From Pigmentiphaga kullae (lineage in GTDB: Bacteria > Pseudomonadota > Gammaproteobacteria > Burkholderiales > Burkholderiaceae_B), in NCBI RefSeq assembly GCF_004216695.1, contig NZ_SGXC01000002.1, positions 248,001-312,000 of the forward strand: a stretch of 64,000 bases of DNA, in the 5' to 3' direction. A program made the translations under genes and the position numbers. Positions 22,829 to 47,596 of the stretch are shown one piece after another (position 1 is the first letter of the stretch; every line of letters starts with the position of its first letter). The notes beneath the pieces are model-generated. The model saw only the letters and a program-made list of their open reading frames with translations, was not told the origin of the DNA and did not search any database.

Positions 22829-22918
22829 AGTGAATGATCCTTTGTGCAATTTCCGTTGAGCAGCCTGAGATGCGGGCTGAGAGAAGCGGCCATCAGGTTC
22901 GGCGCCTGGGCGGCTGGT

Positions 22919-23692: not shown

Positions 23693-23694
23693 GG

Positions 23695-26369: not shown

Positions 26370-26398
26370 ATCCGAGTCCTCCAAGCAAAGCTGCCTGG

Positions 26399-26431
26399 AT
26401 CATGCGATGACCCGATTAAGCGAAACTAAAG
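26399..26431 (-). promoter_or_regulatory. PmrA/QseB-like box and -10 of the dsbD operon
   Basis: On the minus strand CTTTAG-TTTCG-CTTAAT (26431-26415) is an 11-bp-period direct repeat like the PmrA box. After 10 bp comes CATGAT (26404-26399) as -10. The dsbD start is 30 bp further on. The same layout precedes ccmA, ccoN and blh. Confidence 0.7.
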
Positions 26432-26456
26432 GTCCCCCCAATGGCCCGTGGGGGAC
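26432..26456 (-). terminator. Hairpin at the end of the ccm operon
   Basis: GTCCCCC (26432-26438) pairs with GGGGGAC (26450-26456) just past the ccmI stop and directly before the dsbD box. On the minus strand CCTTT follows. It probably separates the ccm and dsbD units. Confidence 0.5.
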
Positions 26457-26466
26457 GGGGATGCCA

Positions 26467-27348
26467 TCAAGGCTTTGCGCTTGGCTCTGGTGATCGACCA
26501 TGGGCGAGTTCCGCCTGCTCCGTCCGGGCCCGTTCAATCCCGGCCGCGACGACTTTCGCCGCCTCGGAATCGGGGGGCATCATCCCGAGCAGCTTCTCCC
26601 AGTGCGCGATGGCCGTTTGATAGTCCCGGCGCTGCACCGCAGCAGCGCCGGCCAGAGTCAGAGGCAGGGCTGCATTGGGATCGAGCGACAAGGCGCGCTC
26701 AAGCAGACGAGTGGGCTCTCCCTCAAAACCGGAGCCACGGATTCTGGACAGCGACTCCGCGTACTCCGCCAACGCCTGTGGATCGTTCTGGACCAGCTCA
26801 TTGGCGTGGGTGAAGGCATTGACGGCTTGCTCATGATCGCCGAAGTAACGGTAGGAACGCGCCAGCATGAGCCAGCCTCCAGGATCATCGGGGTGCTGGG
26901 CCAGCCGTGCCTGAAGAGAGGCCACCATTGCTTGCACATCGGTTTGCGTCGTCATGCTCGCGCTGCGAACCTGTGACGGGTCCGTGGCGGCCGGATTTCC
27001 CAGGTACGAATAGGTGAGCGCTGTCGCGATCGGCAGCAGAATGGCGACAGTGATCGCTGCCCGCTTGCTTCCAGCAGGCGGCCCCAATTTCAACGGAGGA
27101 GCAGCAGTTTCATTCAGCGCTCGCCGCTGAAGATCAGATCTTGCATCGGCCAATTCATTGGCCGACAACGTGCCATTGATGTGGTCTCTCTCCAACTCCG
27201 CCCATTGATCGCGCAGTACCGCGACGTTCACGCTTTCAGGGGCAACTTGGTCGCTCGCACCATGTCCCCCTCGCCAGAGAACGAAAGAAAGCCATATCGA
27301 GACGCCTCCCACGAGCACCGACGCCAGAGTCAGGAAAACGATGCTCAT
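26467..27348 (-). CDS. ccmI: Cytochrome c maturation protein CcmI (CycH)
   Basis: The 293-residue protein has two N-terminal membrane segments (about 1-25 and 95-115) and a periplasmic TPR region (DDPGGWLMLARSY, NDPQALAEYAESL, LDPNAALPLTLAG). CcmI chaperones apocytochrome c to the CcmF/H heme ligation complex. It is the last gene of a complete ccm operon and overlaps ccmH by 4 bp. Confidence 0.93.
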   Translation of the reverse strand: MSIVFLTLASVLVGGVSIWLSFVLWRGGHGASDQVAPESVNVAVLRDQWAELERDHINGTLSANELADARSDLQRRALNETAAPPLKLGPPAGSKRAAITVAILLPIATALTYSYLGNPAATDPSQVRSASMTTQTDVQAMVASLQARLAQHPDDPGGWLMLARSYRYFGDHEQAVNAFTHANELVQNDPQALAEYAESLSRIRGSGFEGEPTRLLERALSLDPNAALPLTLAGAAAVQRRDYQTAIAHWEKLLGMMPPDSEAAKVVAAGIERARTEQAELAHGRSPEPSAKP

Positions 27349-27800
27349 GTTTCGTCCAGTACATTGTGTGGCGGAGCCAGCAGCGCGTCCGCGTGTCTGC
27401 GCTCCTCTTCATTGAGTGCAGCATGCTTCGGCTTGCGGTTTCGGCTGCGCAGATTCATGACCAAGACCACAATGCCCAAGGCAAGCACCACGAACGGGCC
27501 AAACCAAAGCAACATCGTTGTCGGCTTCAAGGGCGGGCGATAGAGCACGAAATCGCCGTATCGCTCGACCATATAAGTCCGGATGTCGTCATCGCTCTTG
27601 CCGGCACGGATCTGCTCGCGGATCTGTTGGCGCAAGTCAGCGGCAAGATCGGCCTGCGAAGCTGCAATCGATTCATTCTGGCAAACCAGGCAACGTAACT
27701 CGGATGCAATGCCCAGCATTCGGTCCTCGGCCGCTTGGTCGCTGGCCCAGACCGGAGCCGTGAACAGAAAGAAAAACAATGCCACCCGCCAGAGAATCAT
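27345..27800 (-). CDS. ccmH: Cytochrome c maturation protein CcmH (CycL)
   Basis: The 151-residue protein has a signal peptide, the invariant motif LRCLVCQNESIA with the redox Cys pair, and one membrane anchor (LLWFGPFVVLALGIVVLV) near residue 105. It reduces the apocytochrome CXXCH disulfide before heme attachment. Its start overlaps the ccmG stop. Confidence 0.95.
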   Translation of the reverse strand: MILWRVALFFFLFTAPVWASDQAAEDRMLGIASELRCLVCQNESIAASQADLAADLRQQIREQIRAGKSDDDIRTYMVERYGDFVLYRPPLKPTTMLLWFGPFVVLALGIVVLVMNLRSRNRKPKHAALNEEERRHADALLAPPHNVLDET

Positions 27801-28321
27801 TTCTCAAGCTCCCGCACCAGCGGCAGCAGCTCGCCGCGCATTTCCCCCGCGTCAATCGCCCCGGTGTGCTTGTAGCGAATGATGCCTGCCTTATCGATCA
27901 CATAGGTTTCCGGCACGCCGTACACCCCGAAGTCGATGCCGACCGCCCCATGCGCATCGGAGACCGTCGTTTCAAAGGCATTGCCATTGCGCCGTAGCCA
28001 GGCGATGGCGTTCTGGGGCGTGTCCTTGTAGTTCATGCCGACCACCGAAACAGCATGCCTGCTGGCCAATTCGGTGATGACAGGATGCTCCTCAAGACAG
28101 GGCGCGCACCAGGAAGCCCACACGTTCAGTACCCAAACTTTCCCGATCATGCTCTCGGATGAGAAGGTCAGGTCCGGAGCTTGCAGTTGCGGAAGGCTGA
28201 AGCGCGGCGCGGGCTTGTTGATCAAGGGCGATGGCACCTCGCTGGGCTTGAGCGTCAGGCCCACTGCGAGGAACGACACCAAGACAAGGAATCCGAGCAG
28301 CGGCCATAGGAAACGGTTCAT
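27797..28321 (-). CDS. ccmG: Thiol:disulfide interchange protein CcmG (DsbE)
   Basis: A 174-residue, N-terminally anchored periplasmic thioredoxin with WASWCAPC, the CcmG-specific acidic stretch after it, and the cis-Pro segment VYGVPETYVID. It keeps CcmH and apocytochrome thiols reduced, with electrons from a DsbD-type protein such as the one encoded at 24531. Confidence 0.95.
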   Translation of the reverse strand: MNRFLWPLLGFLVLVSFLAVGLTLKPSEVPSPLINKPAPRFSLPQLQAPDLTFSSESMIGKVWVLNVWASWCAPCLEEHPVITELASRHAVSVVGMNYKDTPQNAIAWLRRNGNAFETTVSDAHGAVGIDFGVYGVPETYVIDKAGIIRYKHTGAIDAGEMRGELLPLVRELEK

Positions 28322-30279
28322 GATGCGGCCTCGGGCAATGGCGGAGCGACGTGTTGACGGCGAGGCTTCAGACGGTATCGACGATCGCTGATGGCCAAGC
28401 CACCGCCAAGCGCCATCAGGATGCAGCCGATCCAGATCCAGTCAACGAATGGCTTGTGGTAGACACGAACGCTCCAAACACCGTCGCCGAGCGGTTCGCC
28501 GAGCGCCGCGTAGACGTGGCGCAGTCCGTTTGCATCGATCGCCACCTCGGTCATCGGCATCTGCGAGGCCGGGTAATTGCGCTTTTCCGGATGCAGCCGA
28601 CGCAAGACCTTGCCGTCGCGCGACAGTTCGATATCGCCTATCTGCGCCACGTAGTTGGGCCCCCGCGTGCTTCTGACGCCGATCAAAGTGAGGTCGTAGC
28701 CGCCGATGCTGACGGACTCGCCCTGGGCCAATCGAACGTCTCGCTCGGTCTCATACCCACTGACGATGGTCACGCCAGTCACGAATACCGCGATGCCCAG
28801 ATGCGCCATATGCATCCCAAGCCAACTGCGTGGCTGGGCACGCAACCCGCCGCGGGTGGCGCGCATTCGGCCGAAGATGCCCGTCACCACCGACACCGCA
28901 ATCCACGTGGCGAGCATCAAGCCCAACGCCGCAGAAGCTGACCAGTGCCCCAGCACGAACGGGGCGGTCAGGCCCACCAGGGGTGCAGCAATCATCGGCA
29001 CGCGCAACTGCCTGAAGATGGCACCGAACTGGGCGGCCTTCCAATTGGCGGCGGGTCCTACCGCAATCAGAAGCAACGCGGGGATCATCAATGGCACGAA
29101 CACCGCATTGAAGTATGGCGGCCCCACGGAGAGCTTGCCCAGGCCCAGCGCATCGACGAGCAGTGGGTACAGCGTACCGAGCGCGACAGCGCCGGCAGTG
29201 ACGACCAACAGCACATTGTTGACCAGCAGCAAGGACTCCCTGGAGACCATGTCGAACCGTCCTCCCATGCCGACCTTAGGGGCTCGCCATGCGAACAAAG
29301 CGAGCGACGTGCCCACAATGACCGTCAGCAGAATCAGAATGAATAACCCGCGTCGCGGATCGGTGGCAAATGCATGCACAGAAGTCAGTACGCCCGAGCG
29401 CACCAGAAAGGCACCCAAAAGCGAGCAAGAAAATGCGCCGATCGAGAGCAGCACCGTCCAGTTCTTGAAACTGGCCCGCTTTTCCGTCACCGCCAAAGAG
29501 TGGATCAAGGCGGTGCCCACCAGCCAGGGGATGAACGACGAGTTCTCGACCGGGTCCCAAAACCACCAGCCCCCCCAGCCCAACTCGTAGTAGGCCCACC
29601 AACTCCCCAAGGCGATTCCGACCGTCAGATTTGCCCAGGCTGCGGTGGCCCAGGGACGAGACCAGCGTGCCCACGTCGAGTCCAGTTGTCCGGCAAGCAA
29701 TGCAGCAATCGCGAATGCGAAGGCCACCGAAAATCCGACGTACCCCATGTAAAGCAGCGGTGGATGAAAGATCAAGCCGATATCCTGCAGGAGCGGATTC
29801 AGATCCCATCCATCTTGCGGTACCGGGAAAAGTCGCTCGAAGGGATTGGAGGTCAACAGGACGAACAGCAGGAAGCCGGCCGTCACCAGGCCGAGCACGC
29901 CCAGAACGCGCGCCACCATGGCATCCGGAAGCTGTTTCGACAACCGGCTGACCGCATAGGCCCAGCCGGTCTGCATCAGCAGCCAGAGCAGGAGCGAACC
30001 CTCATGTCCGCCCCAGACCGCGGCCATTCTGTAGCCCAGCGGGAGCTGAGAATTGGAGTTTTGAGCGACGTAGGCGACCGAGTAGTCCTTCGCGACAAAG
30101 GCCCAGGTGAGCGCGGCAAAACCGACCATCACCAACAGGAATTGAGCGCGTGCAGCGGGGCGGGCGAACGCGATCCAGGTGAGGTTGGCTCGCGCCGCGC
30201 CGGCCAGGGCAAGAACACCTTGAGCGAGTGCCACGAACAAGGCAGCGATGAGGGCGAGGTGGCCGATTTCTGGAATCAT
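28318..30279 (-). CDS. ccmF: Heme lyase subunit CcmF
   Basis: The 653-residue polytopic protein has the tryptophan-rich heme-handling motif GWGGWWFWDPVEN, conserved periplasmic His residues (VWGGHEGS, IFHPPLLYMGY) and the C-terminal periplasmic domain. With CcmH it ligates heme to apocytochrome c. It overlaps ccmG by 4 bp. Confidence 0.97.
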   Translation of the reverse strand: MIPEIGHLALIAALFVALAQGVLALAGAARANLTWIAFARPAARAQFLLVMVGFAALTWAFVAKDYSVAYVAQNSNSQLPLGYRMAAVWGGHEGSLLLWLLMQTGWAYAVSRLSKQLPDAMVARVLGVLGLVTAGFLLFVLLTSNPFERLFPVPQDGWDLNPLLQDIGLIFHPPLLYMGYVGFSVAFAFAIAALLAGQLDSTWARWSRPWATAAWANLTVGIALGSWWAYYELGWGGWWFWDPVENSSFIPWLVGTALIHSLAVTEKRASFKNWTVLLSIGAFSCSLLGAFLVRSGVLTSVHAFATDPRRGLFILILLTVIVGTSLALFAWRAPKVGMGGRFDMVSRESLLLVNNVLLVVTAGAVALGTLYPLLVDALGLGKLSVGPPYFNAVFVPLMIPALLLIAVGPAANWKAAQFGAIFRQLRVPMIAAPLVGLTAPFVLGHWSASAALGLMLATWIAVSVVTGIFGRMRATRGGLRAQPRSWLGMHMAHLGIAVFVTGVTIVSGYETERDVRLAQGESVSIGGYDLTLIGVRSTRGPNYVAQIGDIELSRDGKVLRRLHPEKRNYPASQMPMTEVAIDANGLRHVYAALGEPLGDGVWSVRVYHKPFVDWIWIGCILMALGGGLAISDRRYRLKPRRQHVAPPLPEAAS

Positions 30280-30282
30280 GGG

Positions 30283-30729
30283 TCAAGGCTTCCTTGAAGC
30301 CGGCTTCTTCTGGACTTCGTCCAGCGCATGCTGGGCCTCGGGCGGCATGTAGTTCTCGTCGTGCTTGGCCAGCACCTCCTCGGCGCGAAAGAGGCCGGCA
30401 CTGTCCAGCCGTCCTTGAACAACCACCCCTTTTCCTTCACTGAACAGGTCAGGCAAGATGCCCGAATACGTGACCGGGATTGCTTTGACCGTATCGGTGA
30501 TGACGAACTGCACGGCAAGCTCACCACGCTGGCGCTTCAGACTACCTCGTTCCACCATGCCGCCGACTCGAAAGGTGCGCTCCAGTGGTGCCTCCCCGGC
30601 ACTGACCTGCGAGGGCGTGAAGAAGAACACAAGGTTGCTCTGAAAGGCATTGAGCACCAGCGCGGTGGCGATGCCGAGGGCGGATAGCCCGGCGACGATG
30701 AGTGCGATGCGTCTATTTCGTGGCTTCAC
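30283..30729 (-). CDS. ccmE: Periplasmic heme chaperone CcmE
   Basis: The 148-residue protein has an N-terminal anchor, an OB-fold (FRVGGMVERGSL, VTYSGILPDLF) and the signature LAKHDENYMPPE. The His there binds heme covalently and the Tyr coordinates iron. It receives heme from CcmABCD and gives it to CcmF. Confidence 0.97.
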   Translation of the reverse strand: MKPRNRRIALIVAGLSALGIATALVLNAFQSNLVFFFTPSQVSAGEAPLERTFRVGGMVERGSLKRQRGELAVQFVITDTVKAIPVTYSGILPDLFSEGKGVVVQGRLDSAGLFRAEEVLAKHDENYMPPEAQHALDEVQKKPASRKP

Positions 30730-30904
30730 GCCGCGCCTCCTTGCCCAGCAATTCCGACTGGATGCGCCATAGCGCTGCTCGGCGCCGGCGCCGGAGCATT
30801 CGGCATTCAGTCCAGAGCAACACCACCGTCGTCAGGACGGATCCCCAAACGTACACGCCATATCCGCCCATCGCCAGGAACTCACCCACACTGGCCCAGT
30901 TCAT
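30713..30904 (-). CDS. ccmD: Heme exporter small subunit CcmD
   Basis: The 63-residue protein has one transmembrane helix (about 14-33) followed by an Arg-rich cytoplasmic end (RMLRRRRRAALW), as in CcmD. The ATG at 30904 has GAGGAGGTGA upstream and overlaps the ccmC stop (ATGA). Its end overlaps ccmE by 17 bp. CcmD is needed to release holo-CcmE from CcmC. Confidence 0.88.
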   Translation of the reverse strand: MNWASVGEFLAMGGYGVYVWGSVLTTVVLLWTECRMLRRRRRAALWRIQSELLGKEARREATK

Positions 30905-31638
30905 CGCTTCACCTCCTCGATGTCCTGCAGCCAGCCGGCGTGATGTTCGCGTTCCAGGATGATGCAGCGCACACGCGCCAGCGCCGCCGCAGCCGTGTAA
31001 GCCCAGGCCGCAAGAACCATGATCAGCATGCCCAACAACATGACCGTCGCCATGGAGGGCGAACGAGTCAGCGATACCGAGGCGCCCTGGTGCAAGGTGT
31101 TCCACCACTGCACGGAGAAATAGATCACAGGGATGTTCACCACGCCGACCAGTGCCAGCACGGCGCCTGCCCGGTCGGCACGGCGACGATCTTCGATCGC
31201 CGACTGGAGTGCGATGAAACCGATGTACAGAAACAGCAGGACTAGTTCAGAGGTCAGCCGCGCATCCCAGACCCACCAGGTTCCCCACATCGGCTTTCCC
31301 CACAAGGCGCCGGTCCACAGAGAAAGGAAGGTGAACAGTGCACCCGTGGGGGCCAGCGCCGAGGCCATCATTGCCGACAGGCGGCTGTTGAACACCAGGC
31401 CAATGCCGGCCCAGAACGCCATCGCCAGATAGATGACCATGGACATCCATGAAACCGGCACGTGCAGGAAGATGATGCGATACCCCTCTCCCTGCTGGGC
31501 GTCGGTGGGTGCCAAGAAGAACCCCACATAGACGCCCGCGAGCGACAGCGCCGCGGCGGTCACGCCGAGCCAAGGGACGAGCTTCCCCGCGAGTGGGTAG
31601 AACGCCTTGGGAGATGAAAACTTGAACCAGTTGACCAT
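30901..31638 (-). CDS. ccmC: Heme handling protein CcmC
   Basis: The 245-residue protein has six membrane segments and the WWD motif MWGTWWVWDARLTSELVL, flanked by the conserved His residues in FLHVPVSW and TLHQGAS. It loads heme on CcmE. Confidence 0.96.
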   Translation of the reverse strand: MVNWFKFSSPKAFYPLAGKLVPWLGVTAAALSLAGVYVGFFLAPTDAQQGEGYRIIFLHVPVSWMSMVIYLAMAFWAGIGLVFNSRLSAMMASALAPTGALFTFLSLWTGALWGKPMWGTWWVWDARLTSELVLLFLYIGFIALQSAIEDRRRADRAGAVLALVGVVNIPVIYFSVQWWNTLHQGASVSLTRSPSMATVMLLGMLIMVLAAWAYTAAAALARVRCIILEREHHAGWLQDIEEVKR

Positions 31639-31650
31639 ACGCTTCGCTCC

Positions 31651-32337
31651 TCAGTACTCCAGTGCGATGCGCAGCGATGCACTCGCTGCGAATGGCGTGA
31701 AGAACGCCGCCAAGACGAACACGGCGGCGAGCAAAGAGAGGTTGGCCGACGCTCCCTGACCGATGATCGACGCATCGACCGCGCCGGCACCGAAGATCAG
31801 CACCGGGATGTAGAGCGGCAGCACCAGCACAGCAACGAGGACACCCCCTGCGCGTACGCCCAGCGTCAGCCCCGCGCCGACGGCGCCGATGAGGCTGAGC
31901 ACCGGCGTACCGATAACGAGCGATGCGGTCAAAATCCAGAGGGACAAGGCAGGCAGGTCGAACTGCAATGCCAGCGCGGGCGCAAGCAAGGCCAAGGGCA
32001 AACCGGACAACAGCCAATGCGCCGCGATCTTGCCGACGACCAACATGGCCAACGGCGCTGGCGACAGCATCATCTGCTCCAGCGTGCCATCGGCGTGATC
32101 CTGCTCGAACAGGCGATTGAGCGAAAGCATGCTGGCCAGCAACGCCGATACCCACAGGACGCCCGGAGCGATCCGTCGGAGCATTTCGCGCTCGGGGCCG
32201 ATACCCAATGGAAACAGACTGACGACCACGACAAAGAAGCAAAGAGGTATCAGCGCGTCTGACCTTCGGAGCAAGGCGAGCTTCAAGTCCCGGCGCATCA
32301 CGACAAATACCGGATTGGCAACGAGGGGCCGGCTCAT
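31651..32337 (-). CDS. ccmB: Heme exporter membrane subunit CcmB
   Basis: A 228-residue protein with six hydrophobic segments and the CcmB stretch LFEQDHADGTLEQMMLSP. It pairs with CcmA as the ABC unit that drives CcmE release. It overlaps ccmA by 4 bp. Confidence 0.95.
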   Translation of the reverse strand: MSRPLVANPVFVVMRRDLKLALLRRSDALIPLCFFVVVVSLFPLGIGPEREMLRRIAPGVLWVSALLASMLSLNRLFEQDHADGTLEQMMLSPAPLAMLVVGKIAAHWLLSGLPLALLAPALALQFDLPALSLWILTASLVIGTPVLSLIGAVGAGLTLGVRAGGVLVAVLVLPLYIPVLIFGAGAVDASIIGQGASANLSLLAAVFVLAAFFTPFAASASLRIALEY

Positions 32338-32957
32338 GCCCCCATCCGGACGGTCTGAGAAGTTTTCAAGGCCAGCTCCTGGTGACTCGTCAGAACGACC
32401 ATGCCGCCGCGTGACTGGTGCCGATGGATCAGTTCACCAAGCCATCGCGCACCGAATTGGTCCAGCGCTGTGGAGGGCTCATCGAGAATCCACAACTTCC
32501 TCCTGTAGAGGAGCAATCGAGCCAGGCTTGCACGACGCTTTTGGCCTTGTGACAACATCCGGAACGGCAAGTGCCTGTGCTCGGCCAAGCCAACTTCGTC
32601 CAACGCTGATTCCACGCATTCCGTGGTGACCGGCTCACCAGCGATGGCGGCCGCGGCAAGCAGGTTGTCCAAGGCATTCAGGTCTTCTTTGAGTCCAATG
32701 CCATGGCCGTTGTAAACCAGTTCGCGTTGGTATTCACTCCACTGGTTGCGCAGCGGCTTTCCTTTCCACAAGACTCTGCCAGCAGCAGGCGTAGCGAACC
32801 CTGCAAGCGTTCGCAATAGCGTGGTCTTCCCGCTGCCGTTCTCGCCGTGCACCGACAGGCACTCGCCCGGCACGATCCGGAAAGTCAAATGGTCAAACAG
32901 GCGGCGCTCCCCGCGAACGCCCGCGAGATCGAGAGCTTCAAGCATGGGCCGGGTCAT
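32334..32957 (-). CDS. ccmA: Heme exporter ATPase CcmA
   Basis: The 207-residue ABC ATPase has Walker A GENGSGKTT, signature LSQGQKRRASLARL, Walker B LWILDEPST and the H-loop SH in LTSHQE. It is the first gene of ccmABCDEFGHI. The start may be ATG 32957 or 32945. Its promoter region is shared with the divergent response-regulator gene. Confidence 0.96.
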   Translation of the reverse strand: MTRPMLEALDLAGVRGERRLFDHLTFRIVPGECLSVHGENGSGKTTLLRTLAGFATPAAGRVLWKGKPLRNQWSEYQRELVYNGHGIGLKEDLNALDNLLAAAAIAGEPVTTECVESALDEVGLAEHRHLPFRMLSQGQKRRASLARLLLYRRKLWILDEPSTALDQFGARWLGELIHRHQSRGGMVVLTSHQELALKTSQTVRMGA

Positions 32958-33012
32958 AGTTCATGCACATGGGCATCCCTGGAAGGTGCGCCCTCAAGGG
33001 GCAATCTTCAAA

Positions 33013-33045
33013 ATCATGTCTTCTCCCGATTAACTGAGAATTAGC
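33013..33045 (-). promoter_or_regulatory. PmrA/QseB-like box and -10 of the ccm operon
   Basis: On the minus strand GCTAAT-TCTCA-GTTAAT (33045-33029) is followed after 10 bp by CATGAT (33018-33013). The bases after the box (CGGG) match the dsbD site. The ccmA ATG is about 56 bp further. The site lies 81 bp from the divergent regulator start and could also autoregulate it. Confidence 0.68.
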
Positions 33046-33125
33046 GGGAACTTGCGTCCTACCTTGCTGTCATTTCTGGCCTAACATGAGCGTGTCAAAC
33101 AAGCAAATTCAGGTTGGTAGGCGCC

Positions 33126-33794
33126 ATGCGAATACTGTTGGTGGAAGACGACAAACTGATCGGACGGGGGATCGTGGCCGGTCTGCACAAGCACGGCATC
33201 GCGGTGCATCACGTCGGCACCGCAGAAGAAGCCGAAGCCACGCATGCGGAAGACACCTTCCATGCCCTGGTGCTCGATCTCGGGCTGCCTGACCGGGACG
33301 GCATGGAGTTGCTGGCCAGCATGCGGGCCGTCGAACCTCAATTGCCCGTCCTGATCCTCACGGCGCGGGACGCCATCGAACACAGGCTCAAAGGGCTGCA
33401 TGAAGGTGCCGACGACTACATGATCAAACCGTTCGACCTGCGTGAACTCGCAGCCCGGTTGCATGCGCTGGTCAGACGCACGCAAGGCCGTGCGGCCCAG
33501 GTCATCTCGGCCGGTCCCCTGCGGCTGGAGCCGGAGAGCGGGCTGGCCTGGTTCCAGGGCGAGCCCGTCTCCTTGTCGCGCCGCGAGGTCGATCTGCTGG
33601 CCCATCTCGCCAACGCCGATGGCCGGTGGGTCCCGCCCGACATGCTCAACGAGCGCTTGTACGGCCTCGGGGAAGAGATCGGCAGCAACGCGCTGAATGT
33701 GCATATCCACAACATCCGCCGCAAGCTCGGCGCCGAAGCCATCGAGACGGTCCGTGGGCTCGGCTATCGGCTGGGCTGGAGGCTTGCATCATGA
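33126..33794 (+). CDS. OmpR-family response regulator, QseB/PmrA type
   Basis: A 222-residue protein. Its receiver domain has phosphoacceptor Asp51 (VLDLGLPDRDG) and the conserved Lys of DDYMIKPFD. The winged-helix output domain ends SNALNVHIHNIRRKLG and TVRGLGYRLGW, the QseB/PmrA/TctD subtype. Regulators of this subtype bind TTAA-type direct repeats with 11-bp period, just what precedes four cargo operons here. The ATG at 33126 is the start; an earlier in-frame GTG-like codon is unlikely. Confidence 0.93.
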   Translation: MRILLVEDDKLIGRGIVAGLHKHGIAVHHVGTAEEAEATHAEDTFHALVLDLGLPDRDGMELLASMRAVEPQLPVLILTARDAIEHRLKGLHEGADDYMIKPFDLRELAARLHALVRRTQGRAAQVISAGPLRLEPESGLAWFQGEPVSLSRREVDLLAHLANADGRWVPPDMLNERLYGLGEEIGSNALNVHIHNIRRKLGAEAIETVRGLGYRLGWRLAS

Positions 33795-35176: not shown

Positions 35177-35329
35177 GTTCGGACCCTGCCAGGGATAGCG
35201 CGGTCACAGCCAATGGACGCAGGCGTGCTGATGTGGTTCGCCTTCGTTCGATCCAGCGCCTGACTTCGGAGTAGGCATCCGCCAGGGATCAGGCGCATGG
35301 CGGTGCTCGTGCGGCTGCCGCTCTTGCGA

Positions 35330-36928: not shown

Positions 36929-36952
36929 AGCCTGAGCATTCCAGTGCTCCTT

Positions 36953-39211: not shown

Positions 39212-40289
39212 CCGTTCCAACCCCAAGCAGTTTTCCGCCCACGACCTTCCCGTAGTAGCTTTGCTCACCTTCGTGGTATTTCTCCAGCGCCTCAGCCACG
39301 GTTCCGGTCTGGCGTGTGTCCTTGGGGCGTTCGTGGCTGTTGATGAATGCCGCCACGTCCCAGGCCTCCTGTTCTGTCAGACTGTATGGCTTTCCAAGCG
39401 GCATGTTCGCCCAGATAAAGCCCGCTGCAGTATCGATGCGGGCCATGCCGGCGCCCCAGTTGTACGACTCGGGTCCCCAAAGCGGGGGAAATCTCATCTT
39501 GCCGTTTTCCTCCCGCGTGCCCTGTCCATCAGGACCATGGCACAGTGCGCAATTTTGTTGATAGACCGCCAGACCTCGGCCCACGTCGTAGTCGTCCTTT
39601 GGTTTCGGCACCTTGGGATAGAGCGCTCCGCGCGGCTTGTTGCCGGCGGGCAGCCCATCGGCCATCCAGGCCATATAGGTCATGAGATCGCGGTACACAT
39701 CGCTGCCAGCGGGCGGCGGTTTCCCGGAGGACGACGCCTGGGCGTTCATCGAATAGGTGAAACAGCCCATGATCCGGTCTTCGAGCGTGCTGATGGTCCC
39801 GGTCTTGCTGCGAAAAGCGGGGTAGGACGCATAGGCCGCCCACATCGGTGCGGCATTCTCTCGCCGTCCCGAGTCGAGGTGGCAGTTCGCGCAGGCCAGC
39901 GAATTGCCCACGTGGTCTTTGACCATGGCGCCAGTGTCGGTGAAGATTTTCATTCCTCGCCGGATGGCATCGCCATAGGGTCCTTTCGGAATGTCATCCT
40001 CCGCAGGCGGGAGGTAGTAGCCGTCCGCACCGACGGGCATACCGGGCGGAGACGCCTTGGCGTCTTTTGCGTAGGCCTTGCGAGCAGCTTCCATATCTGC
40101 TCTCGAATAGGGCGCGGCCGAAGGAATCGTGACCGTTTTGCCGCTGATCGCGCTGTACAGATACCCCATCACGCCGCTCTCGTAGACGCCGTAACCTGCC
40201 GAAAACAGCAGGAGACCCAGCGCCGCAGCATAACCGGCACGCCGGAGTGTCCCCGTGTGCGCAGAGCGGCGATCACCGTTGTTCGTCAT
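39192..40289 (-). CDS. tsdA: TsdA-like diheme thiosulfate dehydrogenase, membrane-anchored
   Basis: The 365-residue protein has an N-terminal hydrophobic anchor (about 19-35) and two heme c sites, Cys133-ANCH and Cys247-ALCH. Cys176 in TLEDRIMGCF lies 39 residues after the first heme site, where TsdA enzymes place the unusual axial Cys ligand. NMPLGKPYSL supplies a likely Met ligand (Met296) for heme 2. TsdA couples two thiosulfates to tetrathionate and passes electrons to cytochromes. It overlaps the upstream cytochrome gene by 17 bp. Confidence 0.82.
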   Translation of the reverse strand: MTNNGDRRSAHTGTLRRAGYAAALGLLLFSAGYGVYESGVMGYLYSAISGKTVTIPSAAPYSRADMEAARKAYAKDAKASPPGMPVGADGYYLPPAEDDIPKGPYGDAIRRGMKIFTDTGAMVKDHVGNSLACANCHLDSGRRENAAPMWAAYASYPAFRSKTGTISTLEDRIMGCFTYSMNAQASSSGKPPPAGSDVYRDLMTYMAWMADGLPAGNKPRGALYPKVPKPKDDYDVGRGLAVYQQNCALCHGPDGQGTREENGKMRFPPLWGPESYNWGAGMARIDTAAGFIWANMPLGKPYSLTEQEAWDVAAFINSHERPKDTRQTGTVAEALEKYHEGEQSYYGKVVGGKLLGVGTDAKSGP

Positions 40290-41079
40290 GATTGCCTCCT
40301 TTGCTGCCCGGACGCAAAGATCCGAAATACTGAGCCACATCGCGCATGTCTTGGTCCGACATGCGCGACGCGATGTCATCCATCAAGGATTGCGGCGAAT
40401 TGTGGCGATGGCCGCCTTTCCATGAGACCAACTGGTGGAAGATGTACTCGGGCTGCTGACCCGCCAGCGCAGGGAAATGGCCGCCGACACCCTCACCCTG
40501 CTGGCCATGACAGGTCACGCACGCCGGGATATCCTTTTTCCAGTCGCCCGTTCGGCTCAGTGCCTCTCCACGCGCCGCGTCTCCGCCCAGATCGACGGGC
40601 GGCCCGGCAACGTGCGGCAGCGCAGCGTAATAGGCCGAGACTTGCCCGATCTCCTCGGCGCTCATTGCACTGGCCACGTACCGCATGGACTCGTTGGGGC
40701 GGCTTCCGGTAGCGAAGTCGTGGAGTTGCTTCGCGATGTAGGCTTCGGACAGGCCGGCCAGCGCGGGCGTCAGCCCCGCGCCAGCACCGTGGTCGCCGTG
40801 ACATGACGCGCAGGCCCAGACGATGTCGTTGCCCTGAAAGACGAGCACCGGCGCGTCATCGGGAACTGCGGGCGCCTGCTGCTTCGGCGCAACGGTCCCG
40901 CCAATCGCCGCCCCGCGATTCGGCGCCAGGTCGGCGATGTAGCTCAAAGCGCCCCAGATCGCCAGCGCCAGGAAGATGGCCAGCACAAACAAGGGAATGG
41001 GACGCGATTGCTCCCAGGGGTCGAATGTCGGGTCTACGTCTTGAACACGACGCCCCTTGCCGCTCAGCTCGGATTTCAT
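40273..41079 (-). CDS. Membrane-anchored diheme cytochrome c (CcoP- or TsdB-like)
   Basis: The 268-residue protein has one N-terminal helix (about 30-47) and two class I cytochrome c domains with CASCH and CVTCH. Size, topology and position after ccoO suit the CcoP role. The heme domains resemble cytochrome c4 and TsdB, the electron acceptor of TsdA. It may link thiosulfate oxidation to the oxidase. An alternative ATG at 41091 overlaps the ccoO stop. Confidence 0.82.
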   Translation of the reverse strand: MKSELSGKGRRVQDVDPTFDPWEQSRPIPLFVLAIFLALAIWGALSYIADLAPNRGAAIGGTVAPKQQAPAVPDDAPVLVFQGNDIVWACASCHGDHGAGAGLTPALAGLSEAYIAKQLHDFATGSRPNESMRYVASAMSAEEIGQVSAYYAALPHVAGPPVDLGGDAARGEALSRTGDWKKDIPACVTCHGQQGEGVGGHFPALAGQQPEYIFHQLVSWKGGHRHNSPQSLMDDIASRMSDQDMRDVAQYFGSLRPGSKGGNHDEQR

Positions 41080-41087
41080 CTCGCCCC

Positions 41088-41729
41088 TCATTGACGCGGG
41101 CCCTTCTGAGTTTTCGGATCGTAGCCACGATCACGCAATGTCGCCTCTTTGGCGCTGACGGGGTAGGAACGGTCCAGGCTCAACAGGTACGCGACCAGGT
41201 CGAGCGCCTCCTGTCGGGCCACCACCACTTTCCCGTCCGCGGGACGGTACTCCTGCGGCAACTTGACCACGACCTCGCCGGGCGCGGCCTTCTCCTTGAC
41301 CTCGAAGAGGAAGGGGTACGAAGGCATGATGCTCCAGTCGAAGATGGCCCTGGGCTGGTACAGGTGGGTCAATTGCCAGTCCCGGCTCGGCAGGCGCACC
41401 CCGACATTCAGCAAATCGGGGCCGGTGCGCATCGTCCCGAGCAGTTGGGGAGCGTCGTAGGCGTAGTCGCCCGGCGTGGACGGCCTTCCCCAGCCCCGGG
41501 CCTGATCCGCCAGCGTCTGGCCACTCGAACGAGGCTGCTGGCTGTGACAGTAGACACAGCCATTGGCCACGTACTGCGCACGGCCTCTTAGCTGTTCGAT
41601 CGTGTAGTTCTGCAACTGCGCAGGTGCCTGGACCGTACGGACCTGCAGGCCGGGGAGCACCACGAGCATGACGGTCGCGAACACCAAGATTCCGACAGCG
41701 CCGACGAACAATGGAATCAGCCGGTTCAT
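41088..41729 (-). CDS. ccoO: cbb3-type oxidase monoheme subunit CcoO
   Basis: A 213-residue protein with an N-terminal membrane helix and the CcoO heme site GCVYCHSQQPRS. MPSYPFLFE is further along. It feeds electrons to CcoN. It overlaps ccoN by 4 bp. Confidence 0.93.
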   Translation of the reverse strand: MNRLIPLFVGAVGILVFATVMLVVLPGLQVRTVQAPAQLQNYTIEQLRGRAQYVANGCVYCHSQQPRSSGQTLADQARGWGRPSTPGDYAYDAPQLLGTMRTGPDLLNVGVRLPSRDWQLTHLYQPRAIFDWSIMPSYPFLFEVKEKAAPGEVVVKLPQEYRPADGKVVVARQEALDLVAYLLSLDRSYPVSAKEATLRDRGYDPKTQKGPRQ

Positions 41730-43282
41730 GCGTCACCTCGCCGTTTCGACCAGAGTAGGGCCATCGCATGGAAGGCAAAGACGAAGTGTCCCAGCGTCAT
41801 CATGCCGCCGCCCACCGATCGACCTTCGAGATACGGCACGATGTTGCGGGTGATGTCAGCGAAACTGGTCTGTGGATCGAGCAGCGACATGCCTTGCAGG
41901 AAACCGCCGATGGTCAATGACAGGAAATAGATCAGAAAACCCAGGACCGTCAGCCAATAGTGGATGGCGATGAGTCGCGGACAGGGCCAGTTCTTGCCCG
42001 TCAGGTAGGGCAAGAGATAGTAGAAGGCGCCGAACAGCACGATGGAGACGAATGCGTAAGCTCCCAGGTGCGCATGCCCCACCGTGTAGTGCGTGAAGTG
42101 GGTGATCGAGTTGATGGCCCGTACAGCCTCCAGCGATCCCTGGAAGGATGCGGCCGTGTACATCAATGCGCCCGTGGACACGAAGCGCAGCGCCATGGAC
42201 TCCTTGAACGCCCAGAAATTCTGCGCGACCGTCACGTGCTGATTGATCGCCACCGCGATGACAGGAATGAACATCATGACGCTGTGCACGATCGACAGCG
42301 TGACCACCCACGTCGGCACGGGCCCACCGATCAGGTGATGAATACCCACCTGGCTGTAGAACAAGGCAAGGCCCCAGAAGCCCAGCAGCGAAACGCTATA
42401 CGAATAGATCGGCTTGCCGATGATCTTGGGAATCAGGTAATAGGCAGCACCCAGCCCCAGCGGTGTCAGCCAGAGGCCAAGCACGTTATGCGCGAACCAC
42501 CAGTTGGTGGTGGCTTGCTGCACGCCTGAATGCAGGCCCGGGATATTCGCGATGAAGAACAGAATGGGGAACCATGCCAGTCCCGCGAGGTAGTACCAGC
42601 CGCTGACGTAGATGTGGTGAACGTTGCGTTTTCGGGTCGTCGCGATGGCGGACCATGCGATGAAGAAGCCGCCGAGGGCCAGGACGATGTCGATCTGCCA
42701 TGGGATTTCGAGCCACTCCAGGCCGTCGCTCCATCCATTGGCAATGGCAATGGCACCGGCCGCCACGCCGAGGGCCCACAGCACCGCGCCCACCATCGCC
42801 ATTGCGGGCCTTCGCAGGGGCGTATGAAACATGCGAGGGATGATCCAGAGCGCGACCGCTATGCCCCCTGTGGACAGCCAGCCGTACGCGACCAGATTCA
42901 GATGGACGGTGCGCGCGCGCCCGAAGGTGGTGAACGCCTGACTCGCCAGCCAGTCGGGCCAGTGCAACTTCAGCGAGGCGATCATCCCGAACAGCGAGCC
43001 AACGATCAGGAACAGGAAGGAAGCGATGGACAGGACCAGTACGACGTTCCGACCCGGGGCGTCGACGCCGGCACGCAAGGCGTCGAATCGATGCTCGGCC
43101 GCCCCTTCATCGAATGAAGATGGATCATCCGGGGAGCCGGCCTCGCCCTCCAGAAATATGGTCGAAGCCTCCTTCTTTCCCGCATGGATCTGGCGCGTCA
43201 CGATGGACCAGATCAACGCGCCCAGAGCCGCCAGCGAGACGATAAAGCTCAGAGCAAGGAGAAACCCTAGGCTTTCATTCAT
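41726..43282 (-). CDS. ccoN: cbb3-type oxidase catalytic subunit CcoN with CcoS-like N-terminus
   Basis: The 518-residue heme-copper oxidase subunit has about 12 helices. His ligands are visible in RTVHLNLVAYGW, WWFAHNVLG, GIHHLIGGP, INQHVTV and HYTVGHAHLG. It is some 40 residues longer than most CcoN. The first 60 residues (LSFIVSLAALGALIWSIVTRQ followed by an acidic tail) resemble the small assembly protein CcoS/FixS, suggesting a CcoS-CcoN fusion. No separate ccoQ, ccoG, ccoH or ccoS gene is nearby. ATG 43282 follows GGAGC. Confidence 0.92.
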   Translation of the reverse strand: MNESLGFLLALSFIVSLAALGALIWSIVTRQIHAGKKEASTIFLEGEAGSPDDPSSFDEGAAEHRFDALRAGVDAPGRNVVLVLSIASFLFLIVGSLFGMIASLKLHWPDWLASQAFTTFGRARTVHLNLVAYGWLSTGGIAVALWIIPRMFHTPLRRPAMAMVGAVLWALGVAAGAIAIANGWSDGLEWLEIPWQIDIVLALGGFFIAWSAIATTRKRNVHHIYVSGWYYLAGLAWFPILFFIANIPGLHSGVQQATTNWWFAHNVLGLWLTPLGLGAAYYLIPKIIGKPIYSYSVSLLGFWGLALFYSQVGIHHLIGGPVPTWVVTLSIVHSVMMFIPVIAVAINQHVTVAQNFWAFKESMALRFVSTGALMYTAASFQGSLEAVRAINSITHFTHYTVGHAHLGAYAFVSIVLFGAFYYLLPYLTGKNWPCPRLIAIHYWLTVLGFLIYFLSLTIGGFLQGMSLLDPQTSFADITRNIVPYLEGRSVGGGMMTLGHFVFAFHAMALLWSKRRGDA

Positions 43283-43800
43283 GGGCGCTCCAGAAATGGC
43301 GCGCAACCATCCGAATTGGTTCCGATGCCAACCACTGGTGTTGGCGATAGTGTTCCATCAGGGCTTGCCTCAGCATTGTTTTTATGAATGTCGCATGTGA
43401 ATCACGGGAATGATGGTCAGCCTCGATTAAGCGAAAGTTAAGAGTGTTTTTCGAGGTGCCCCGCGCTCTTTGACCGTGGACTGTCTGGATGGCGAGATCC
43501 AAATACAGTCGGCCCGGATATTCGAATCGTCGTGACGCGAAGGTCTCGGCCGCCTCGCGGCAGACACCGGCGCTGCGCCTGGGGTCAGCATCGGCAGGGG
43601 GCGGGACGATCGCTTGTTCGCCTAGTGCCAGGAAATCACAGTGGACGCACGTATCCGTTATAACCACCCGCATCCCGAAGGACAGTCTCCCCTGGCAGGG
43701 ATAGCCGCTGTTGAGGCTCGGAGGGCCGAATGCCGCTCCTCCTTTCGCCCGCACTATGAGCGTCGGTTTCCCATGTCCCGGCGATGACGCATGCGGCGGC
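43283..43800. other. 518-bp leader and intergenic region upstream of ccoN
   Basis: The stretch between the sqr stop and the ccoN start holds the ccoN box and -10 (43410-43442) and about 120 bp of 5' leader. The rest, 43443-43800, has an open minus-strand frame with CVHCDF and a few Cys, but no recognisable family and no good start. It may be a gene remnant. Confidence 0.5.
43410..43442 (-). promoter_or_regulatory. PmrA/QseB-like box and -10 of the ccoN operon
   Basis: On the minus strand CTTAAC-TTTCG-CTTAAT (43442-43426) is the best box of the set and shares its spacer TTTCG with the dsbD site. CATCAT (43415-43410) follows after 10 bp. The ccoN start is about 128 bp downstream. Confidence 0.72.
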
Positions 43801-45471
43801 TCACCCGTCCGAGAGGACAGGATGCGCGAGCCATTCGCGGCCCTTGAGCATGCCGTCCCAATAGACCGGCGGCAGGATGCGTTCCTTCAGCAGCCACGCC
43901 AGCGATGACGGCCGCTTGCCGTCGATGAACCATTTCGGAAACGAAGGCGCCAGCTTGCCGCCGTAGGCAAATTCCGCCAGCACGATCTTGCCGCGCTCGA
44001 CAGTGAGCGGGCAGGAGCCATAGCCGTCATAGCTGGCCAGGCGCGTGGACCCGCTCCGGGCGGCGAGCAGGTTGTGCGCGACCACCGGCGCCTGCTTGCG
44101 TGCGGCCGCAGCAGTCTTGGCATTGGTGGTGTTGGTGCAGTCGCCGAGTGCGAAGACGTTGGCGTACTTCTTGTGGCGCAGGCTCGACGGGTCCACGTCC
44201 ACCCAGCCCGCAGCGTCCGCCAGCGGGCTCACTCGGATGAAGTCCGGCGCCTTCTGTGGCGGCACGGCGTGCAGCAGGTCAAATGGACGGGTGACGCGCT
44301 CCTTGGTGCCGTCGGCGTTCGTGCGGATGAAGGTGGCTTCATGCGCTGCGCCATCGACGGCCACGAGCTGGTTGCTGAATTGCAGATCGATGCCATAAGC
44401 CTTCACGTACTCCATGAGCGCGGGCACGTAGTCCGGCACGCCGAAGAGCACGCCTCCCGCGTTGCAGAACTCGATGTGGATGTTCTTGAGCACGCCCTGC
44501 CGCTTCCAGTGATCGGCCGAGAGGTACATCGCCTTCTGCGGCGCACCCGCGCATTTGATGGGCATGGGCGGCTGCGTGAACAGGGCCTGGCCGCTCTTGA
44601 GGTTCTGCACCAGTTCCCAGGTGTAGGGCGCGAGGTCGTAGCGGTAGTTGGAGGTGACGCCGTTGCGGCCCAGTGTTTCAGGTAGGCCCTCGATGCCGTT
44701 CCAGTCGAGTTTCAGGCCCGGGCAGACCACGAGCTGCTGGTACTTGACGACGCGGCAGCCATCGAGCACGAGGGCGTCGCGCTCGGGCTCGAACGCGGCG
44801 ACGGCCATCTTGATCCACTTGACGCCGCGCGGAAGCACGCTCGCCATCGTGCGCGCCGTGTGCGCAGGCGGAAAGATGCCCGCGCCCACCATCGTCCACC
44901 CCGGCTGGTAGTAGTGCACATCCGCCGGGTCGATGACGGCGATGTCCGCGTCCGGCTTGCGCGCGAGCAGGCTGGACGCCACCGCGATGCCCGCCGCGCC
45001 CGCGCCGACGATCACGATGTCATGCGTGGCGTCCACGACTTCGGTGGGTGTGCGCCCGCCGTTGGCGATGCGCCGGGCCACGCCGGACAGGTCGTAGCCG
45101 GCACCGCGCGCGGCTTCGAGGATGGAGGCCAACGGCTGACGCTGCGCCTGGCTCAGCGCCCACAGCGTGGCCGAGCGCGTGCCGGTGCGGCAGTAGGCGA
45201 ACACCGGGCCGGGCAGTTGCGTCATCAGCGTCCCGAAGGCCTGGGCCTGCTGGTCGGTCACTTTGCCGGACTCGACGGGCAGGTAGGTCGCCGCCATACC
45301 CAGTGACTGGGCGGCCTGCTCGATTTCGCTGAAGCCGGGCTGATCGCCCGCTTCTCCATCGGGCCGATTGCAGATCACCGAGCGGTAGCCAGCCTCGGCG
45401 ATGGCCTGCAGGTCGGTGGCAGCGATCTGGCCGCTGACGGCCAGTCCCTGGTCCAAGGCTTTGATGTCCAT
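43801..45471 (-). CDS. Fusion of DUF442 phosphatase-like domain and SQR-type FAD oxidoreductase
   Basis: Residues 1 to about 115 form a DUF442/TIGR01244 domain with a phosphatase-like P-loop, Cys94 in AYCRTGTRSA. From about 150 an FAD-binding fold begins (IVIVGAGAAGIAVAS), with VVCPGLKLDW, PIKCAGAPQKAMY and LGDCTNTTNAKTAAA typical of sulfide:quinone oxidoreductases. Cys residues in these segments are candidates for the sulfide-oxidising pair. The DUF442 domain occurs in Blh proteins; here it is attached to the SQR, and the dioxygenase is the next gene upstream. Confidence 0.9.
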   Translation of the reverse strand: MDIKALDQGLAVSGQIAATDLQAIAEAGYRSVICNRPDGEAGDQPGFSEIEQAAQSLGMAATYLPVESGKVTDQQAQAFGTLMTQLPGPVFAYCRTGTRSATLWALSQAQRQPLASILEAARGAGYDLSGVARRIANGGRTPTEVVDATHDIVIVGAGAAGIAVASSLLARKPDADIAVIDPADVHYYQPGWTMVGAGIFPPAHTARTMASVLPRGVKWIKMAVAAFEPERDALVLDGCRVVKYQQLVVCPGLKLDWNGIEGLPETLGRNGVTSNYRYDLAPYTWELVQNLKSGQALFTQPPMPIKCAGAPQKAMYLSADHWKRQGVLKNIHIEFCNAGGVLFGVPDYVPALMEYVKAYGIDLQFSNQLVAVDGAAHEATFIRTNADGTKERVTRPFDLLHAVPPQKAPDFIRVSPLADAAGWVDVDPSSLRHKKYANVFALGDCTNTTNAKTAAAARKQAPVVAHNLLAARSGSTRLASYDGYGSCPLTVERGKIVLAEFAYGGKLAPSFPKWFIDGKRPSSLAWLLKERILPPVYWDGMLKGREWLAHPVLSDG

Positions 45472-45519
45472 GAGGGTCTCCTGCCCGGAAATTGTCCTTT
45501 CAGCCGGTCGGTGCCGCTC

Positions 45520-46398
45520 TCAGAGGGCATCGATGGGAATCTTGAGGTAGTGGACGCCGTTGGATTCGGCAGGCGGCAACTCGCCGGCCCGCATGTTCAC
45601 CTGCACGGAGGGCAGCAGAAGCACGGGCATCGCCAGCGTGGCGTCGCGCTGCTCGCGCGTGGCCGCGAAGTCATCCTCGCTGATGCCGTCACGCACATGG
45701 ATGTTGTGCGCACGCTCCTCGGCCACGGTGGTCTTCCATTGAAGCTCGCGCCCCCCGGGGCGGTAGTCGTGGCACATGTAGAGCACGGTCTCCGGCGGCA
45801 GCGACAGCACGCGGCCGATCGAGCGGAACAGTGTGCGCGCGTCGCCACCCGGAAAGTCGCAACGCGCCGTGCCATAGTCGGGCATGAACAGCGTGTCGCC
45901 CACGAAGGCTGCGGCAGGCGCTTCAGGTGTGGCGTTGTCCTGGACCAGATAGGTCATGCAAGCGGGCGTATGGCCGGGGGTATGCATGGCCCGCACCTGC
46001 AGCGTGCCGAGCATGAAGGTCTCGCCGTCGTCGAACAGACGATCAAACTGCCGGCCGTCACGCGCGAAGGCCGGCTCGGCGTTGAAGAGCTGGCCGAACA
46101 CCTGCTGTACGGTACGGATGTTCGCCCCAATGCCGGTTCGGCCGCCCAGGCACGAATGGAGATACGGCGCGGCGCTCAGGTGATCTGCGTGCACATGCGT
46201 CTCCAGAATCCACTGGACGCTCGCCCCCAGTTCCCGCACGCGCTCGGCCATGCGGTCCGCGCCGGCGCGCGAGGTGCGGCCGGATTTAGGATCGTAGCCG
46301 AGCACGCTGTCGATGATGGCGCACTGACCGCTTTTCGTGTCCAGCACGATGTAGCTGAAGGTGCTGGTGTCCTCGTCAAAGAAGGGTTCGATCTTCAC
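45520..46398 (-). CDS. blh: Blh/ETHE1-like metallo-beta-lactamase-fold persulfide dioxygenase
   Basis: The 292-residue protein has the MBL metal motif ETHVHADHLSA, then MHTPGHTPACMTY and FVGDTLFMPDYGTARCDFPGG, the persulfide dioxygenase pattern. It would oxidise glutathione persulfide made by SQR to sulfite. I choose the GTG at 46398 (MKIEPFFDEDTSTF), which matches the family's N-terminus. An ATG at 46479 would start at about the predicted transcription start. It is followed by the DUF442-SQR gene 48 bp downstream. Confidence 0.9.
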   Translation of the reverse strand: MKIEPFFDEDTSTFSYIVLDTKSGQCAIIDSVLGYDPKSGRTSRAGADRMAERVRELGASVQWILETHVHADHLSAAPYLHSCLGGRTGIGANIRTVQQVFGQLFNAEPAFARDGRQFDRLFDDGETFMLGTLQVRAMHTPGHTPACMTYLVQDNATPEAPAAAFVGDTLFMPDYGTARCDFPGGDARTLFRSIGRVLSLPPETVLYMCHDYRPGGRELQWKTTVAEERAHNIHVRDGISEDDFAATREQRDATLAMPVLLLPSVQVNMRAGELPPAESNGVHYLKIPIDAL

Positions 46399-46486
46399 GG
46401 TGTCTTTGCCTCGCTGAATGTATGACCCGTCTGTTGTCGCCCAAGCTCCCTTGATCGGATGTTTGTGGGTCGTTCTCACATGCCAG

Positions 46487-46519
46487 ATGGTGTCCGGGTC
46501 GAATTAACTCAAAATTAAA
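46487..46519 (-). promoter_or_regulatory. PmrA/QseB-like box and -10 of the blh-sqr operon
   Basis: On the minus strand TTTAAT-TTTGA-GTTAAT (46519-46503) is followed after 10 bp by CACCAT (46492-46487). The spacing is identical to the other three sites. The blh GTG is about 89 bp downstream. Confidence 0.62.
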
Positions 46520-47447: not shown

Positions 47448-47475
47448 GGCAGCTTGTATTTAACATGTATCTAAT

Positions 47476-47489: not shown

Positions 47490-47596
47490 TAAAATATCAA
47501 GGCACTTCCTCGAAGGCAGGAAGTGCGGCAGGTCTTCCTGCCGGTGTTCTCATGCTGCGGCGTGGGTTCGCCTGACACCTCATTCCTGATTCGTTC

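Follow-up and report, generated by a model that had tools for sequence, protein, structure and literature searches.

In a stretch of 64,000 nucleotides of the Pigmentiphaga kullae genome (hereafter the window; contig NZ_SGXC01000002.1, C2:248001-312000 in a genome of 6.22 Mb and five contigs), a two-component system of the DsbRS type, carried on an integrative and conjugative element (ICE), very probably activates four cargo operons of the element as one regulon, through a shared box that would replace the -35 element. As shown in Table 1, the four sites lie on the minus strand, and each consists of two TTAA-like half-sites with an 11-bp period and faces its operon, namely dsbD, the cytochrome c maturation (ccm) operon, an oxidase operon that begins with a ccoN-like gene, and PDO-Blh-SQR. 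Their sequences, strand, coordinates, 10-bp gaps and -10 hexamers (CATGAT, CATGAT, CATCAT and CACCAT) were exactly as given in a preliminary description of this DNA. Its remark that no good -35 element is present held at 17-bp spacing, where 0-1 of 6 bases agree with TTGACA in all four promoters; at 16 bp the ccm promoter has 4/6 and the PDO promoter 3/6 of these bases. The upstream flanks of the four promoters are dissimilar (8-23 of 60 bases alike), which indicates that the boxes did not arise by recent copying of a single promoter; a common origin by duplication was tested and found no support within the window, although the Pseudorhodoferax locus L032 has a second dsbD-like promoter at 9902-9918. 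The ICE label is supported by a phage-type integrase gene (16092-18029) and, on the right side, by genes with TraI_2 (52068-55475) and TraG_N (55996-57543).

The regulator had been assigned to the PmrA/QseB subtype. This subclass stands, but the sequence features identify the pair as a DsbRS orthologue and not as an anonymous PmrA/QseB system, on the grounds of its linkage to Dsb genes and its sensor Cys. An OmpR/PmrA-subclass regulator is followed by a 2CSK_N-type kinase, which is the layout of a DsbRS pair, and dsbD, a redoxin gene and dsbG lie nearby at 22919-26384, separated from the pair by ccm. The regulator scores below both curated cut-offs, with 221.5 of 330 for PmrA (NF007928) and 210.6 of 345 for QseB (NF007663). 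Its recognition helix (SNALNVHIHN) resembles that of PmrA (TNTLEVHIHN) and that of a Pseudomonas-like DsbR (SNALNVHIHH). The PmrA box consensus is a TTAA direct repeat with an 11-bp period, so that PmrA/BasR and QseB share subclass, recognition helix and repeat with the window system, whereas the targets in the window are unrelated to lipid A or flagella. Among 80 loci kept for comparison, the eight closest relatives (L031-L038, 94-66% identity) come from Achromobacter, Pseudorhodoferax, Acidovorax, Zhongshania, Halomonas and Lysobacterales, including Luteimonas and Lysobacter. They adjoin dsbD or other Dsb-type genes, and in five of the eight (L033, L034, L035, L037 and L038) the pair is directly divergent from dsbD. 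Pseudomonas dsbRS-dsbDEG has this arrangement.

Two reports describe DsbS of P. aeruginosa as responsive to copper and as the activator of DsbR (PMC10141476, PMC11195947). For P. fluorescens, another report lists dsbS (PFLU4380), dsbR (PFLU4381) and dsbD-dsbG (PFLU4382-4384), and an adaptive mutation between dsbR (114 bases away) and dsbD (49 bases away) that hits a predicted DsbR site (PMC13101516). In four loci taken for Pseudomonas (L192-L195), the dsbD-facing box, GTTAATCATCGGTTAAT, covers about 111-129 bases from the dsbR start, and, given equal spacing, the P. fluorescens mutation would therefore lie within the box. This box fits TTA-N8-TTAA, as do the ccoN and PDO sites of the window exactly and its dsbD and ccm sites with one mismatch each. 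The original DsbRS study (Yu et al. 2022, Sci Bull 67:198) reportedly gave TTA-N8-TTAA as the consensus and Cys82 as the sensor Cys of P. aeruginosa DsbS, and Pseudomonas DsbRS is said to control dsbDEG. The window resembles this system in having a regulator-kinase pair beside dsbD, dsbE and dsbG, a sensor Cys, and a dsbD-facing box with 10 bp to CAnnnT. Unlike it, the window pair belongs to an ICE and is separated from dsbD by ccm; boxes stand also at ccm, cco-tsd-lnt and PDO-Blh-SQR, none convincingly facing dsbR. The regulator itself is thus already known; new are the DsbR-type boxes in front of ccm, the CcoNO-TsdBA-type oxidase operon and PDO/Blh-SQR.

We next compared the sites with chance expectation. 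The pattern TTAAYN5STTAATN10CANNAT, with up to 3 mismatches, has 5 matches in the window against 0.25 expected, and none of 100 shuffles reached 5. The fifth match (47443-47474) overlaps the start region of the BigR-like arsR gene, is AT-rich and resembles the repressor's own operator; it was not counted as a DsbR box. Over the whole genome the loose pattern showed no significant excess (31 matches versus 38 for a reversed control), and the four window sites supply three of the four matches at ≤1 mismatch and four of the seven at ≤2. Of 399 genomes of the order, 48 had a match at ≤2 mismatches and about 30 had one for the reversed control, so these matches are mostly background; among the matches listed, the three with no mismatch are all from the window. 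A matrix was built from 13 dsbD or dsbR promoter sites of other loci, with the window and its closest relatives left out. With the box alone, the window sites ranked 1-4 (scores 21.3-23.5; next 12.4; best of 100 dinucleotide shuffles 18.0), and with the -10 included they again took the first four places (24.7-30.9; next 13.9; best shuffle 17.4). In the genomes of seven relatives, five had matches, 18 in all, against one for the reversed control over all seven. Twelve of the 18 are boxes described here, and the other six (five in genome G004, one on G002:C1) have 3 mismatches; no match was found in the two genomes that contain L036 and L038.

The boxes recur in related islands, as would be expected of functional sites under the preliminary description. 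A clear box stands beside the regulator or dsbD in seven of the eight close-relative loci, L036 being without one, and the dsbD site orthologous to box 1 is present in L031, L032, L033, L034, L035, L037, L038 and L138. The dsbD-facing site is the most widely conserved of the four, which would also suit an account in which that box alone is functional, as ancestral DsbR control of dsbDEG, and those at ccm, cco and PDO are chance matches or AT tracts that look like promoters. We consider this quite unlikely, since counterparts of the ccm, cco/lnt and PDO boxes, with partly different spacers, are present in L031, L032 and L140, plasmids of Paracoccus and Indioceanicola have cco boxes too, and none of 100 shuffles scored as high as any of the four window boxes. 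Box 3 has counterparts in front of lnt in L032 and at ccoN in L181, L182 and L237, and box 4 at PDO in L032 and L140. In Pseudorhodoferax (L032, L138), boxes were found at both dsbD genes, lnt, PDO and a DsrE-MBL-DsbA operon; in Achromobacter, at dsbD, a deleted ccm remnant and PDO. On pBEN of Paracoccus versutus, and likewise in P. aminovorans, DsbRS and dsbD are accompanied by DsbA-like proteins and by the CcoN-CcoO-cytochrome-TsdA-ATPase row also found in the window; each 30-kb stretch holds five perfect boxes, of which one is at dsbD and another at ccoN, and pBEN has a sixth with a single mismatch. On an Indioceanicola plasmid, a box lies between the regulator and ccoN. Relatives of ccoN were found in nine plasmid records, of which seven were compared together with the window, the other two being second strains of species already included. 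Where DsbRS is near ccoN, a box (0-1 mismatch) lies within 350 bp in 4/4 cases, two of them Paracoccus loci that are near copies of each other; without DsbRS nearby the count is 0/4 (at least 3 mismatches). The circuit had been called an undescribed one of ICEs. DsbRS-type regulators are known, however, and the link of DsbRS to an oxidase with boxes also exists on alphaproteobacterial plasmids; a mobile regulon for periplasmic thiol chemistry and sulfur respiration was not described among the top matches of our open-licence literature searches, several of which were swamped by papers on double-strand breaks.

The box also travels with the sensor Cys. The position aligned with Cys81 is Cys in 13/13 DsbS-type kinases (11 of these loci show a dsbD match; L036 and L145 do not) and in 0/10 other relatives. 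When a sensor profile was run against 398 genomes drawn from the whole phylum, 94 matched at E≤1e-20, and the top group held 23 non-window loci down to E 1e-39, of which 20 were fetched with wide flanks. The Cys is present in 19 of these 20, and the Cys-less L236 has no box. Of 11 plasmid loci with the kinase, eight have both Cys and boxes; of the three Cys-less ones, L239 and L243 have no box at ≤1 mismatch in their stretch and L244 has one, away from the regulator. A total of 115 loci were tried and 111 could be scored; the 350 bp upstream of the regulator contain a box with ≤1 mismatch in 24/39 Cys-type loci versus 2/72 others, and a perfect one in 16/39 versus 0/72. Some Cys-type loci without a box near the regulator, such as L231, carry one elsewhere, and the stretches of the 20 drawn loci and of three plasmid loci, 23 in all, contain 29 boxes at ≤1 mismatch versus 4 in one shuffle of each. 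Thus, the shared boxes, their conservation and their co-occurrence with a Cys-type kinase support, at the level of sequence, one regulon with an on-board sensor.

The spacing between box and -10 agrees with the class II-like geometry proposed earlier for a shared PmrA/QseB-class box. At 10 bp, 17/19 box-linked promoters have a -10-like score above 0, compared to at most 4/19 at the other spacings from 4 to 18, in a set that includes the four window sites and many others found by a score containing the -10. When rows were picked by the box alone (≤2 mismatches), 14 of 37 were positive at 10 bp, among them 13/15 in L188-L199, where the boxes face dsbD or dsbR. In beta/gamma-type relatives, a box at dsbD is again followed after 10 bp by CAnnnT, and because box and spacing are already found at dsbD of Pseudomonas-like genomes, both look ancestral and not an invention of the ICE. 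On these promoter sequences, the 10-bp spacing is an old feature of beta/gamma-type promoters and not a general rule. At 65% G+C, the value for the window, AT tracts would stand out at any promoter, and the four sites might be ordinary constitutive promoters with AT-rich upstream elements that resemble a box. This is highly improbable, as four unlike promoters share two phased TTAA-like half-sites with an exact 11-bp period and a 10-bp gap, lack a -35 at 17 bp, and are associated with one kinase class.

Another source of control would be the host. Its genome encodes 18 homologues of the window regulator (E≤1e-20), one of them inside the window interval; the pair had been called the only two-component system here, and this holds among homologues of that regulator, to which the search was limited. 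Since the nearest of the others is 44% identical (C1:1802520), cross-talk between ICE and host regulators of this class is possible. A TTAA-type match with 3 mismatches, 10 bp and CACCAT is present at C1:1800301, about 2 kb from this PmrA/QseB-like gene. A host PmrA/QseB-type regulator could read the boxes, with the ICE cargo plugged into a host circuit, because PmrA-class boxes are alike across the subclass, and the paralogue with its nearby match would be a candidate. We regard this as unlikely: in different species and replicons the boxes accompany the DsbS-type kinase, cco operons without DsbRS have none, and the recognition helix of the host paralogue differs (SNAVEVYIHG).

Several points weigh against control of the four operons by the pair of the ICE. 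DsbR-type activation at the boxes is inferred from sequence, some of the 13 matrix sites were first found via a window-derived score, and a search for a convincing box facing the window's own regulator gave only a weak match at 33058. In the comparison of kinase classes, the window's four sites deviate from the strict consensus by 1, 3, 1 and 1 mismatches, 15/39 Cys-type loci, including L031 and L032, have no box at ≤1 mismatch near the regulator, and at ≤2 mismatches the counts are 29/39 versus 16/72 others. The Fisher p value for boxes at ≤1 mismatch (4e-12) is a guide only, since loci related by descent, such as the two Paracoccus loci, overstate independence, and the Cys in the 39-versus-72 comparison was scored with a motif written after it had been seen. 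A perfect box anywhere in the stretch was found in 8/20 DsbS-class loci, and in 5/66 control loci as well. The 10-bp rule fails in L200-L209 (1/22 rows positive), presumably Alphaproteobacteria, another class of the host's phylum, where the boxes are mostly perfect CTTAAG-N5-CTTAAG palindromes of unclear orientation. Copper sensing through the sensor Cys is reportedly a property of Pseudomonas DsbS; copper binding and a copper-induced loss of phosphatase activity are among the traits that define a DsbRS system. We take PA2479 to be dsbR of P. aeruginosa. One report places PA2479 in stringent-response and persister pathways (PMC13086498), which the DsbRS reading leaves unexplained.

In the mechanism that we propose, phosphorylated DsbR would bind a box like CTTAA(T/G)-N5-CTTAA(T/G) and act as a class II activator, with the box in place of the -35 element and a weak CAnnAT 10 bp downstream of it. 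The kinase may read a thiol-reactive periplasmic signal through Cys81, copper by analogy with Pseudomonas DsbS or possibly reactive sulfur. The latter is suggested because, in stretches of 10-20 kb, PDO-like genes occur in 7, SQR in 4, YeeE/TauE in 5 and dsbD in 12 of 20 DsbS-class loci, compared to 0, 0, 0 and 1 of 66 other regulator relatives. The outputs would be periplasmic reductant supply by DsbD, the DsbE-like protein and DsbG; cytochrome c maturation by Ccm, a system that depends on electrons from DsbD; a cbb3-like oxidase coupled to TsdBA, together with its metal pump and Lnt; and sulfide oxidation by PDO and Blh-SQR, which also lie beside a BigR-like repressor. Jointly, they would convert sulfide to thiosulfate and tetrathionate, with electrons passed to oxygen and thiol and copper chemistry kept in check. 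More tentatively, and with rather more doubt than confidence, DsbRS may at root be a sensor of periplasmic thiols and reactive sulfur across Proteobacteria that governs a sulfide-to-tetrathionate regulon (Dsb, Ccm, CcoNO-TsdBA, PDO and SQR), its Cys being modified by sulfane sulfur or copper, with mobile elements spreading the regulator together with ready-wired operons. The proposed circuit would connect a copper-responsive kinase, described only recently, with sulfur respiration and with the assembly of cytochromes and oxidase, offers a concrete candidate binding site for DsbRS species, and is an example of an ICE that would carry a regulator with several pre-wired operons; the neighbourhood counts make the question of the DsbS signal directly testable.

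Table 1. Candidate regulatory sites and genes of the window (positions from its first nucleotide)
Feature	Position	Strand	Basis or remark
Box 1, CTTTAG-N5-CTTAAT, DsbR-type, dsbD promoter	26415..26431	-	sequence reading, pattern, matrix
Putative -10 CATGAT, 10 bp past box 1	26399..26404	-	
Box 2, GCTAAT-N5-GTTAAT, DsbR-type, ccm promoter, between ccmA and divergent regulator gene	33029..33045	-	sequence, matrix; site shared by L031
Putative -10 CATGAT, 10 bp past box 2	33013..33018	-	
Box 3, CTTAAC-N5-CTTAAT, DsbR-type, ccoNO-tsdBA-ATPase-lnt promoter	43426..43442	-	sequence, matrix
Putative -10 CATCAT, 10 bp past box 3	43410..43415	-	
Box 4, TTTAAT-N5-GTTAAT, DsbR-type, PDO-Blh-SQR promoter, within BigR-rhodanese gene row	46503..46519	-	sequence, matrix
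Putative -10 CACCAT, 10 bp past box 4	46487..46492	-	
Response regulator, DsbR orthologue, PmrA/QseB subclass	33126..33794	+	best PDB match BasR/PmrA, E 2e-49
Sensor kinase, DsbS orthologue, 2CSK_N-type	33791..35176	+	sole Cys of N-terminal sensor part at residue 81 (GIAC81E)
TauE/SafE-family exporter	22022..22849	-	
dsbG	22919..23692	-	NF008657 above cut-off
Redoxin/thioredoxin-family gene, LGT-like N terminus, dsbE position	23695..24531	-	
dsbD	24531..26384	-	start probably in-frame TTG near 26369, opening signal peptide
ccm operon: ccmA, ccmB, ccmC, ccmE position, ccmF, ccmG, ccmH, ccmI	26467..32957	-	ccmE from gene order only
lnt, apolipoprotein N-acyltransferase	35330..36928	-	
Heavy-metal P-type ATPase, probably copper, CcoI/CopA-like	36953..39268	-	TIGR01525 417.4 (cut-off 346.25)
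TsdA-type thiosulfate dehydrogenase, not a CcoP	39192..40379	-	5lo9 E 1.9e-84; 4wqc E 2.7e-54
Cytochrome c, two Cytochrom_C stretches, probably TsdB-like	40273..41091	-	position before tsdA
ccoO/FixO-like subunit II	41088..41729	-	
ccoN-like oxidase subunit I	41726..43306	-	43306 = first frame start; probable ATG near 43281
Blh sulfurtransferase-SQR fusion	43801..45471	-	
PDO, MBL-fold dioxygenase part of Blh	45520..46479	-	
Rhodanese with YgaP-like membrane segment	46586..47113	-	
BigR-like ArsR repressor	47136..47447	-	possible second sulfur input

The cargo would serve the oxidation of sulfide to thiosulfate and on to tetrathionate, with electrons to oxygen, alongside the machinery for cytochrome maturation. 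The preliminary description spoke of a ccoN operon; a ccoN-like gene does lie under box 3, but the row is a TsdBA-type oxidase operon and not an ordinary cbb3 one. A plain cbb3 operon was dropped because CcoN- and CcoO-like subunits share the row with a TsdA-type enzyme, a cytochrome placed where TsdB would be expected, the P-ATPase and Lnt. The CcoN-like protein is divergent (TIGR00780 score 242.5 of 583.15, below the cut-off). It starts MNESLGFLLALSFIVSLAALGALIWSIV (43190-43281, minus strand), which gives the impression of a CcoS-type segment fused to CcoN, and a Pfam scan of the whole protein found COX1 alone; the start of the protein is crossed by the end of a short frame (MEHYRQHQW...). 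The TsdA-type protein keeps two CxxCH haems (CANCH and CALCH), and the Cys of its GCFTYSMN aligns with that of TsdA DCFERSLN, presumably the haem-ligating Cys; its match 5lo9 is what we take to be a TsdBA fusion. As in TsdBA-linked thiosulfate oxidation, this cytochrome adjoins a second cytochrome and CcoNO, whereas here the row also includes a heavy-metal ATPase and lnt under a DsbR-type box. The ATPase scores just below the cut-off of the copper P-type model TIGR01511 (373.2 of 397).

The BigR-like ArsR, rhodanese, PDO and Blh-SQR row resembles the sulfide-responsive BigR/SqrR-blh operons, and differs from them in an internal DsbR-type promoter, which would add a second, kinase-based input, and in an ArsR that is BigR-like only, below the BigR cut-off (NF040642, 70.8 of 155). 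The AT-rich stretch at 47440-47500, upstream of the BigR-like gene, is perhaps its operator, and PDO-Blh-SQR would then have two inputs. In the Dsb row, the frame at 24092-24691 was rejected as dsbE, being probably an overlapping non-coding frame in a place filled by the redoxin gene. A second DsbD is encoded in the host genome.

Some further observations were made in the relatives. One contig of Pseudorhodoferax soli carries DsbRS-dsbDEG twice, the copies being separated by about 100 kb. The Achromobacter island (L031 9286-9832) keeps the ccm promoter box, but of the ccm operon only the last part of ccmI and the first part of ccmA are left. On Paracoccus pBEN (L181 3485-5085 and 21009-21710), boxes also adjoin LysR and YkuD (L,D-transpeptidase) genes, an unexpected possible target.

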